NCBI RefSeq assembly: GCF_016127315.1
Contig: NZ_CP065997.1
Span: forward strand, 5,208,001-5,272,000
Length of the DNA: 64,000 bases
Reading direction: 5' to 3'
From: Achromobacter deleyi
Lineage (GTDB): Bacteria > Pseudomonadota > Gammaproteobacteria > Burkholderiales > Burkholderiaceae_B
A model generated the notes under the pieces. That model was not told the DNA's origin and searched no databases. It saw only the letters and a list, made by a program, of their open reading frames with translations. Positions 38,354 through 42,776 of this stretch are shown piece after piece. Position numbers and translations under genes: made by a program. Position 1 is the stretch's first letter, and each line of letters begins with the position of its first letter.

Positions 38354-38848
38354 ATGAGCTACGACACCGCCGAAGCCGCCGTTACCGAACGGATCCTGCC
38401 TGCCATCCTGGAGCAGGCGCGCGCCGCGGCGCTGGGCCAGCATCTTCCCTACGCGGGCGGCGTCGCGCCCGCCGACGCCTGGACGCTGGCGCAGAACGGC
38501 GACGCGGTGCTGGTGGACGTGCGCTCGGCGGAAGAACGCAAATTCGTCGGCCACATCCCCGGCACGGTGCATGTGCCCTGGGCCACCGGCACCAGCCTGA
38601 CCCGCAACCCGCGTTTCGTGCGCGAACTGGAGGCCAAGGTGGCCAGCGCCGGCGGCAAGGACGCCGTGGTGCTGCTGCTGTGCCGCAGCGGCAAGCGCTC
38701 GGCGCTGGCCGCGGAGGCGGCCGCCAAGGCGGGCTTCGCGGCGGTCTTCAATGTCTTCGAAGGCTTCGAGGGCGAGCTCGACGCCAACCAGCACCGCGGC
38801 CTGAGCGATGGCTGGCGCCATCGCGGCCTGCCCTGGGTGCAGGACTGA
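38354..38848 (+). CDS. Rhodanese-like sulfurtransferase of the encapsulin operon
   Basis: 164 residues, a single rhodanese domain. DAVLVDVRSAEERKFVGHIP opens the domain and VLLLCRSGKRSALAA carries the sulfur-accepting C110. It carries or transfers sulfane sulfur as a persulfide. First of four genes: rhodanese, serine O-acetyltransferase, family 2A encapsulin, cysteine desulfurase; this set recurs in family 2A encapsulin loci. Start ATG 38354 has GGAGG 10 nt upstream. Stop and next ATG are 1 bp apart. Confidence 0.88.
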   Translation: MSYDTAEAAVTERILPAILEQARAAALGQHLPYAGGVAPADAWTLAQNGDAVLVDVRSAEERKFVGHIPGTVHVPWATGTSLTRNPRFVRELEAKVASAGGKDAVVLLLCRSGKRSALAAEAAAKAGFAAVFNVFEGFEGELDANQHRGLSDGWRHRGLPWVQD

Positions 38849-38849
38849 C

Positions 38850-39779
38850 ATGGCGGCCTTCGATCTGGAGGGCGTGGTGCGCGCCCTGGACGGCATCCGC
38901 GCCCAATGGCGCACCTCGCAACAGCGCGCCCGCGAGCCAGGCGAACGCGAGTTTCCGTCGCGCGAAGCGCTGGCCGACATCTTCGACAAGTTCAAGCGCG
39001 CGCTTTTCCCCATGCGCCTGGGGCCGGTGGACATGCGCCACGAAAGCGAGAATTTCTACGTCGGCTACACGCTGGACGCGGCCCTGCGCAGCCTGCTGGA
39101 ACAGGCGCGGCTGGAGCTGCGGCGTCACGCGCCCGCCGACGCCGGCGTCGATGAACACGCCGCCGCGATCGTGCGCCGGTTCGCCGCCGCGCTCCCGGAC
39201 GTGCGGCGGCTGCTCGACAGCGACGTGCTGGCGGCCTATCACGGCGATCCGGCGGCGCGCAGCGTGGACGAGGTGCTGCTCTGCTATCCCGGCATCCACG
39301 CCCTGATCCACCATCGCCTGGCGCACCAGCTGTACCTGCTGGACCTGCCGCTGCTGGCGCGCATCGCGGCCGAGATCGCCCATGGCGAAACCGGCATCGA
39401 CATCCACCCCGGCGCCCAGATCGGCCCGGGCTGCTTCATCGACCATGGCACCGGCGTCGTCATCGGCGAGACCGCCCGCATCGGCCGCGGCGTGCGCATC
39501 TACCAGGCGGTGACGCTGGGCGCCAAGCGCTTCACCACCGACGCCGACGGCAACCTGGAAAAAGGCCTGGCGCGCCATCCGATCGTGGAAGACGAGGTCG
39601 TCATCTACGCCGGCGCCACCATCCTGGGCCGCGTGACGCTGGGCCGCGGCGCAGTGATCGGCGGCAACGTCTGGATCACCAGCGACGTGGCGCCCGGCGC
39701 CACCGTCACGCAGGCCGGCCCGCGCAGCACGCCGCAGGCCGACGCCGGCCAGGCGCGCCAGCGCGAGCGCGCCGCCTGA
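38850..39779 (+). CDS. epsC: Serine O-acetyltransferase (EpsC-type CysE)
   Basis: 309 residues. The N-terminal helical part is followed by left-handed beta-helix hexapeptide repeats: GIDIHPGAQIGPGCFIDHGT, GVVIGETARIGRGVRIYQAV, IVEDEVVIYAGATILGRVTL. The two conserved His in DIHPG and IDHGTG are the catalytic pair. Makes O-acetylserine, the precursor to which sulfide is added to form cysteine. Longer N-terminus is typical of the EpsC branch. Co-transcribed with the rhodanese; a terminator follows before the encapsulin gene. Confidence 0.9.
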   Translation: MAAFDLEGVVRALDGIRAQWRTSQQRAREPGEREFPSREALADIFDKFKRALFPMRLGPVDMRHESENFYVGYTLDAALRSLLEQARLELRRHAPADAGVDEHAAAIVRRFAAALPDVRRLLDSDVLAAYHGDPAARSVDEVLLCYPGIHALIHHRLAHQLYLLDLPLLARIAAEIAHGETGIDIHPGAQIGPGCFIDHGTGVVIGETARIGRGVRIYQAVTLGAKRFTTDADGNLEKGLARHPIVEDEVVIYAGATILGRVTLGRGAVIGGNVWITSDVAPGATVTQAGPRSTPQADAGQARQRERAA

Positions 39780-40788: not shown

Positions 40789-40796
40789 GCCGCACG

Positions 40797-42776
40797 ATGG
40801 CTGTCGCCGATTCCTCTCCAAGCTTCGCCGCCCTGGCCGGCGGCGTGCCGGGCGCGCCGGAAGCGCCCATCGATCCGGACGTGCTGGCGCGTCTGGCCAA
40901 TGCCTTCTTCACGGCGTTGCCGGGACGGCCGGCGCCAGCCGACCTGCCGGCGGCGGTCCCGCCCGGGGTGCAGGCTCCGGTCAACGTCGCGCCGCCCGGC
41001 TCGCCGCTGGTCAGCCCCGCGGGACTGGGCCCGGGCGTGCCCGGCACGCCGATCCCGCAGGGGCTGGCGCCGGGCGCCAACCTGGCGCCAGCCTCGCCAG
41101 CGCCCTTGCCCTCGCTGGCGCACCGCGCGCCGGCGCTGCTGCCGCACGCCCAGGCGGGCAACGGCCTGCCCGACAACGTGGTGACGGCGGTGCCGGCCTA
41201 CGAGCCGCGCTTCGGCGCGGGCGCCACCGGGATCGCGCCCGGTGCAGCGACGGCCCGGCCCGACGCCGGGGCAGGGAAGTCCATCCCCTACTATTTCCTG
41301 GAGGACGGGCAGGGTCATCCGGCGCGGCCGGGCACGGTGCTGGGCGCCACGGCGGTCAGCGACGACCTGGCCGGGCTGGCCGTGCCCGCCCAGGCCGCCA
41401 CTCCCGCGGCGCCGGCCCCGCCGGCGGCGGCCGCGGCCTCGCCGGACCCGCGCTATTACTTCGTCGACGCGGTGGTGCTGCCCAGCGGCTACGTCACGCC
41501 CGCGCATCCCCAGGCGCGGACCGCGCCGCATGCCGGCGCCGATGCCCATCCGCCGTTCGACGTGCACGCGGTGCGGCGCGACTTCCCCGTGCTGCGGGAA
41601 CGCGTCAACGGCCGCCCGCTGGTGTGGTTCGACAATGCCGCCACCACCCACAAGCCGCAGAGCGTGATCGACCGGATCGCGTATTTCTACGCCCACGAGA
41701 ACTCCAACATCCATCGCGCCGCGCACGAGCTGGCGGCGCGCGCCACCGACGCCTACGAGGGCGCGCGCGAGCGGGTCCGGCGCTTCATCAACGCGCCCGA
41801 CGTCAACGAGGTGATCTTCGTGCGCGGCACCACCGAGGCCATCAACCTGGTGGCCAAGAGCTGGGGCGCGCAGCACGTGGGCGAGGGCGACGAGATCATC
41901 GTCTCCAACCTCGAGCACCACGCCAACATCGTGCCCTGGCAGCAGCTGGCCGCGGCCAAGGGCGCGCGGTTGCGCGTGATTCCGGTGGACGACAGCGGTC
42001 AGATCCTGCTGGATGAATACCAGAAGCTGCTCAACGACCGCACCCGCATCGTCGCGGTGACCCAGGTGTCGAACGCGCTCGGCACCGTCACGCCGGTCGC
42101 TCGCATCATCGAGCTGGCGCACCGGGCCGGCGCCCGCGTGCTGGTGGACGGCGCGCAGTCGGTGTCGCACCTGCGGGTGGACGTGCAGGCGCTGGGCGCG
42201 GACTTCTTCGTGTTTTCCGGCCACAAGATCTTCGGGCCCACCGGCATCGGCGTGGTCTGGGGCCGGCGCGAGGTGCTCGAAGACATGCCGCCCTGGCAAG
42301 GCGGCGGCAACATGATCGCCGACGTGACCTTCGAAAAGACGGTGTTCCAGCCCATACCCAACAAGTTCGAGGCCGGCACCGGCAATATCGCCGATGCGGT
42401 CGGGCTGGGCGCGGCGCTGGACTACGTGACGCGCCTGGGCATCGAGAACATCGGCCGCTACGAGCATGACCTGCTGGTCCATGGCATGCGCGGGCTGGGC
42501 GCCATCCCGGGCGTACGGCTGATCGGCACGGCGGCGGACAAGGCCAGCGTCATGTCCTTCGTGCTGGACGGCTACAGCACCGAGGAGGTCGGCCAGGCGT
42601 TGAACGAGGAGGGCATCGCGGTGCGCACCGGGCACCATTGCGCCCAGCCGATCCTGCGCCGCTTCGGGGTGGAAACCACGGTGCGGCCATCGCTGGCGTT
42701 CTACAACACCTACGAGGAGATCGACCGCCTGCTGGACGTGGTGCAACGGCTGGCGTCGGTCCGCCGCGGCGGCTGA
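40797..42776 (+). CDS. Encapsulated cysteine desulfurase, family 2A cargo protein
   Basis: 659 residues, about 250 longer than SufS. Residues 1 to about 250 are Pro/Ala/Gly-rich and predicted disordered, with short conserved islands: DVLARLANAFFTALP (28-42), YYF at 165-167 and again at 220-222; this is the cargo-loading domain that binds the shell interior. From about 255 on is a SufS-type desulfurase: WFDNAATTHKPQSVIDR, NIHRAAHELA, FSGHKIFGPTG with PLP lysine K477, and RTGHHCAQP with persulfide cysteine C615. Converts cysteine to alanine and sulfane sulfur inside the nanocompartment. Probably translated by coupling to the shell gene, as no strong ribosome site is seen. Confidence 0.93.
   Translation: MAVADSSPSFAALAGGVPGAPEAPIDPDVLARLANAFFTALPGRPAPADLPAAVPPGVQAPVNVAPPGSPLVSPAGLGPGVPGTPIPQGLAPGANLAPASPAPLPSLAHRAPALLPHAQAGNGLPDNVVTAVPAYEPRFGAGATGIAPGAATARPDAGAGKSIPYYFLEDGQGHPARPGTVLGATAVSDDLAGLAVPAQAATPAAPAPPAAAAASPDPRYYFVDAVVLPSGYVTPAHPQARTAPHAGADAHPPFDVHAVRRDFPVLRERVNGRPLVWFDNAATTHKPQSVIDRIAYFYAHENSNIHRAAHELAARATDAYEGARERVRRFINAPDVNEVIFVRGTTEAINLVAKSWGAQHVGEGDEIIVSNLEHHANIVPWQQLAAAKGARLRVIPVDDSGQILLDEYQKLLNDRTRIVAVTQVSNALGTVTPVARIIELAHRAGARVLVDGAQSVSHLRVDVQALGADFFVFSGHKIFGPTGIGVVWGRREVLEDMPPWQGGGNMIADVTFEKTVFQPIPNKFEAGTGNIADAVGLGAALDYVTRLGIENIGRYEHDLLVHGMRGLGAIPGVRLIGTAADKASVMSFVLDGYSTEEVGQALNEEGIAVRTGHHCAQPILRRFGVETTVRPSLAFYNTYEEIDRLLDVVQRLASVRRGG

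Follow-up and report, generated by a model that had tools for sequence, protein, structure and literature searches.

The stretch of Achromobacter deleyi DNA analysed here (the window; 64,000 nucleotides (nt) of contig NZ_CP065997.1, positions 5,208,001 to 5,272,000, the source genome being a single 7-Mb contig) carries at 38354–42776 of its forward strand a family 2A encapsulin operon of four intact genes, encoding in order a rhodanese, a serine O-acetyltransferase (SAT), the encapsulin shell and a SufS-type cysteine desulfurase. The first gene (38354–38848, +) encodes a rhodanese-like sulfurtransferase of 164 amino acids (aa; PF00581, 3.5e-15) with its active-site cysteine, C110, within CRSGKR. 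The second (38850–39779, +) encodes an EpsC-type SAT of 309 aa (NF041874, 161.6 bits; cut-off 150) with H186 in DIHPG and H199 in IDHGTG, which we take to be the catalytic histidine positions. A gap of 76 nt (39780–39855) separates it from the gene for the SrpI-like shell (39856–40788, +; 310 aa), which is followed by that for the cargo desulfurase (40797–42776, +; 659 aa), with K477 in SGHKIFG and C615 in RTGHHCAQP. An earlier, sequence-only reading had claimed these four genes in this order, a family 2A encapsulin and intact catalytic residues; the reading frames and curated family models bear out the first two points, and on the third, C110, K477 and C615 are in place and the SAT histidine pair, with its presumed role, is present. 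The locus is thus a real, intact and ordinary member of an operon type already described. A second EpsC-like SAT, 62% identical to that of the operon, is encoded elsewhere in the genome (locus L002, G000:C1 near 3702142) next to a gene that by eye resembles galE, and is perhaps the housekeeping enzyme.

The shell protein matches the family 2A model NF041162 (encap_f2a) with 525.6 bits (cut-off 380) and PF19307 at 2.3e-101. Its residues 8–310 align with the solved chain 8t6r (557 bits) and residues 9–305 with SrpI (6x8m; 482 bits), 9ksl and 8wol being further solved relatives, and it shares 81% identity with the shell of Acinetobacter baumannii and 71% with Synechococcus SrpI. Chain 8t6r itself probably comes from A. 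baumannii, its start being by eye near-identical to that of the A. baumannii locus L019. With 407.6 bits the family 2B model NF041163 likewise exceeds its cut-off of 400, but it scores below the 2A model and its best stretch begins at model position 212; the cyclic nucleoside monophosphate (cNMP)-binding domain that marks family 2B is absent from the 310-aa shell, in which PF19307 alone was matched at E 0.001. An AlphaFold2 model built on 14 aligned close sequences reached a mean predicted local distance difference test (pLDDT) score of only 31, which counts against our interpretation without being evidence against the fold. Because of this low value the fold assignment is based on sequence identity to the solved shells, and since solved family 2A shells are matched over nearly the whole length, an HK97 fold is near certain by homology.

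The desulfurase matches NF041166 (f2_encap_cargo1) with 939.1 bits (cut-off 800), so that both shell and cargo lie far above the cut-offs of their family models, and its residues 248–654 match the solved desulfurase 8kg1. The long disordered N-terminus claimed for it corresponds to a stretch of 252 residues rich in Ala, Pro and Gly (combined fraction 0.54, no Cys in residues 1–252); the stretch is there, and its composition, the sole basis for this part of the claim, suggests disorder. Within it are found LARLANAFF (residue 30), YYFL (residue 165, in SIPYYFLEDG) and YYFV (residue 220), the last lying nearer to the catalytic domain than YYFL. LARLANAFF and SIPYYFLEDG are counterparts of the two loading motifs, LARLANEFFS and AASPYYFLDG, that the available part of PMC8049743 gives for the cyanobacterial cargo. 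A scan of 90 cargo rows, of which several are truncated at locus ends and one (L029) was read as empty, gave one or more YYF-type motifs in 86 and two in 59; a strict pattern for the LARLAN-type motif matched 41.

For comparison, 80 loci from named genomes were used; they are those nearest to the window among 576 or more confirmed relatives and hence a sample biased to near kin. The order rhodanese-SAT-shell-cargo on one strand is found in 73 of them; of the seven exceptions, contig ends truncate five, and in two (L075 and L090) no SAT is seen. SAT and rhodanese are the most enriched accessory genes of such operons according to the accessible text of PMC8346489. The betaproteobacterial version had been called little studied, which fits the open-licence literature, except that the composition of the operon is already in print in that same source. 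Three known systems are instructive: 1) The SrpI/CyD locus of Synechococcus elongatus (plasmid pANL; 6x8m) likewise encodes a SAT, a shell and a desulfurase with a disordered N-terminus, with a rhodanese nearby; there, however, cysK precedes the SAT gene and the rhodanese gene follows the cargo gene, whereas in the window the rhodanese gene comes first and the flanking genes are not cysK. 2) The A. baumannii locus L019 has the same four genes in the same order, also with no XRE regulator found, but its SAT-shell gap is about 240 nt long as compared with 76 nt. 3) The plasmid locus of Variovorax sp. PBL-E5 (L017; shell 94% identical) shares the gene order but carries between SAT and shell an XRE regulator gene and a 21-bp element, neither of which is present in the window.

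Some variants in gene content were also observed. In L075, L090 and L105 a rhodanese gene lies close to the shell gene with no SAT match, and L090 (Halomonas) is also without the XRE gene. Three betaproteobacterial metagenome bins (L088, L093 and L098) have about 1 kb of extra sequence between rhodanese and SAT, and Paraburkholderia xenovorans LB400 possesses two separate family 2A loci (L084 and L087), on chromosomes 2 and 3. L106/L107 (G072) may encode a truncated shell: the match, in a frame of 216 aa, spans only residues about 81–290 and scores below the family cut-off.

Just upstream of the shell gene, 73 of the 80 close loci carry a gene for an XRE-type helix-turn-helix protein of about 90 residues (PF01381), which in 71 demonstrably lies between SAT and shell and which the Variovorax plasmid record (L017) annotates as a helix-turn-helix regulator. 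The gene is absent from the 76-nt gap of the window (39780–39855, +), and the best match to the regulator in the window's genome is only 41% identical, with none closer elsewhere. It is also missing from Achromobacter insuavis and from two Achromobacter lineages (L012 and L014) and is present in another, L013. In a tree of SAT and shell, the regulator is present in most rows that fall outside the Achromobacter clade. Among the open-licence papers listed for encapsulin in combination with helix-turn-helix, XRE, Achromobacter or rhodanese, or for desulfurase nanocompartments and their transcriptional regulation, nothing describes the XRE regulator. In the accessible text of PMC8346489 it is absent from the passages on 'regulator', and the terms 'XRE' and 'helix-turn-helix' do not occur; the available part of PMC8987985 deals with encapsulin in one section and XRE in another, making no connection between the two. 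For the cyanobacterial operon, the regulator CysR is named in a title cited in the accessible part of PMC8049743.

Common to the regulator-bearing loci is a 21-bp element, TTGRYGGCTATAGCMTGTTGA, located about 80–150 nt before the shell start. Once duplicates and fragments (L001, L003, L004, L015, L016, L106 and L107) had been left out, 38 loci served to build a matrix, which detects the element in 76 of 77 regulator-bearing loci (the miss being L091) and in 0 of 15 regulator-less ones; among regulator-bearing loci outside the training set the count is 38/39, and two Burkholderiaceae records outside training also carry it. Among 399 genomes drawn from the order, a search tolerating one mismatch gave 9 occurrences of the pattern, in 9 genomes; each lies 85–121 nt ahead of a shell gene that has SAT and regulator genes upstream, whereas a reversed control pattern gave 0 matches in the same 399 genomes. 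The element was not found in the window's own genome at one mismatch, and the best matrix score between 37900 and 42900 was only 1.3 bits. The description of the locus as complete therefore holds for its four genes and fails for a fifth, regulatory gene and an operator-like element, which most close relatives possess.

In 50 of the 77 loci the element extends over the final codons of the regulator gene; in 27 it lies outside the regulator reading frame. Conservation merely as regulator coding sequence was considered and rejected on account of these 27 copies, and the element is therefore conserved as DNA. We read it as the putative operator of the XRE regulator; it may also be part of a promoter.

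In the window, the SAT-shell gap contains a terminator-like hairpin, AGGGGC-UUCG-GCCCUU (39793–39808, +), followed by a U-rich run; L012 and L014, Achromobacter lineages that also lack the regulator, have a similar hairpin and run. Further upstream, a stretch of about 80 bp preceding the rhodanese gene (38233–38311, +; coordinates read by eye) is shared by five Achromobacter loci, including a regulator-bearing one, while all sequence to the left differs. This region includes a weak TTTGGA-17-TAGATT arrangement at 38274–38302; a consensus scan of 37000–43200 gave no sigma-70-type promoter-like site. If the operon has a promoter and an activator site nearby, this conserved region is the likeliest place for them. 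No known RNA family reached its gathering score in the window.

Taken together, these data are consistent with a family 2A system that in Burkholderiales would be controlled by a dedicated XRE regulator, acting in most close relatives on the 21-bp operator before the shell gene. The Achromobacter lineage of the window would have lost both, relying on the conserved upstream promoter region, and the hairpin present instead may let the two enzymes be expressed separately from shell and cargo, so that shell and cargo expression would have been rewired within the genus. We lean slightly towards this account as a whole. Repeated loss of the regulator in Achromobacter is the simpler and likelier reading of the distribution than another history, without being proven by it. 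The following points weigh against these proposals: i) the regulator-less loci were called with one query at E 1e-3, and a distant regulator could escape it; ii) the row nearest to the Achromobacter clade in the SAT and shell tree (L118) is also without the regulator, at a weak fork (82/24); iii) this tree has several weak forks and does not settle the branching inside the Achromobacter clade; iv) given the overlap in 50 of 77 loci, losing either the regulator or the element can drag the other along; v) a possible second copy of the element before the rhodanese gene, with at least 13 of 18 matches, occurs in 26 of 75 regulator-bearing and 2 of 14 regulator-less loci, and by the shell-side matrix in 16/73 with and 0/8 without the regulator, which is suggestive of a weaker symmetrical copy and supports only in part a perfect palindrome serving as second operator; vi) the whole 76-nt gap folds no more stably than its shuffles (z -0.37); and vii) comparison with 25 upstream regions of sbp and 17 of cysI revealed by eye only short, misaligned resemblances and no convincing shared sulfur-regulon site. 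Terminator-like sites also showed no excess (2 found as against 3.5 expected). Because neither folding nor terminator counts exceed expectation, the role proposed for the hairpin is based on its position and conservation.

The shell gene is patchily distributed, a match being found in 5 of the 43 genus genomes, including this one, and in 11 of 250 drawn from the family (10/250 over the cut-off). The nearest named relative is A. insuavis LMG 26845, with a shell 100% identical and SAT and shell tree rows identical to those of the window, and the shells of the four other Achromobacter loci are 98–100% identical to it. When these loci were compared with 33000–50000 of the window, similarity in three was confined to the region between about 38226 and 42777, while in A. 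insuavis it ends at the left end only, the right flank being shared; the left flank thus differs in 4/4 and the right flank in 3/4. Stretches of the left flanks of two of the other Achromobacter loci, L117 and L116, when mapped to the window genome, gave only paralogue-like matches, of 65–72% over longer stretches, those of 74% or more being confined to stretches of at most about 220 bases. Since presence is patchy and the left flank is different in all four other loci, the cluster is an accessory block moving horizontally between sites. No site duplications at the cluster ends were noticed by eye in the alignments, and no integrase was noted among the neighbouring genes, to which this search was limited.

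The same patchiness and differing flanks, together with the absence of the regulator and the 21-bp element, would also fit a horizontally acquired passenger that is poorly expressed after regulator loss. We consider this improbable, since all four reading frames are intact, the four other Achromobacter shells are nearly or fully identical to that of the window, and the upstream element is conserved where the flanks are not.

Regarding the site itself, the interval 36058–42820 between a TonB receptor gene and a gene for a flavin adenine dinucleotide (FAD) protein looks like an insertion spot, which is empty in G009, G020 and G040. In these 3 of 11 congeneric loci the TonB receptor gene stands directly before the FAD gene, with no LysR gene, agmatine-deiminase gene or encapsulin operon; in G006 the agmatine-deiminase gene adjoins the FAD gene, also without the operon. 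About 27 kb from the encapsulin locus, the window encodes a second sulfate-binding protein (9885–10970, -; TIGR00971, 407 bits), which only 3 of the 25 genomes examined from the genus possess, beside a LysR gene and genes for a class-V aminotransferase (12239–13444) and a family-5 solute-binding protein (13490–15043).

Assembly, cargo loading and sulfur storage in A. deleyi can be fairly inferred from homologues, and we regard it as probable that the operon is functional, with a shell enclosing the desulfurase, sulfur being stored, and XRE control lost in this lineage. The shell protein would assemble as an HK97-type icosahedral shell around the desulfurase, held inside by the short motifs of its disordered N-terminus. 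Cysteine entering the shell would be converted from L-cysteine to alanine, leaving persulfide sulfur, which would accumulate inside, probably as elemental sulfur, or pass to the rhodanese; the latter would move sulfane sulfur in or out, and the SAT would raise O-acetylserine and with it the supply of cysteine. Elemental sulfur storage is named in the title of a 2024 paper.

The rhodanese gene lies upstream of the shell gene in 78 of the 80 close loci, the remaining two being cut by contig ends. This fits the proposal, set out in the accessible text of PMC8346489, that the shell is a gate and not a store, its persulfide sulfur passing only to the co-encoded rhodanese and from there to chosen acceptors. 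Such a role is partly compatible with storage, and we think it rather unlikely. Elsewhere, the available part of PMC8049743 reports that the cyanobacterial system is induced by sulfate starvation, that the N-terminus loads the cargo and that turnover is about sevenfold higher in the shell. The same source offers as one possibility that the shell mainly restrains the desulfurase, sparing scarce cysteine, in which case sulfur storage would be incidental. The sevenfold increase is the opposite of restraint, and a SAT in the operon would be expected to raise and not to spare cysteine flux, so this alternative seems hardly probable for the window, for which we retain the storage compartment as the preferred interpretation.

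By itself, the A. deleyi locus is one more well-preserved member of a known family, and the regulatory comparison is worth more, as it puts forward, for bacterial sulfur nanocompartments, a dedicated regulator and an operator as candidates. If the proposed loss is true, Achromobacter would provide a natural before-and-after pair for the control of shell and cargo, its species with and without the regulator being a ready comparison. The signal sensed by the regulator, whether cysteine, persulfide or O-acetylserine, would tell when cells store sulfur.

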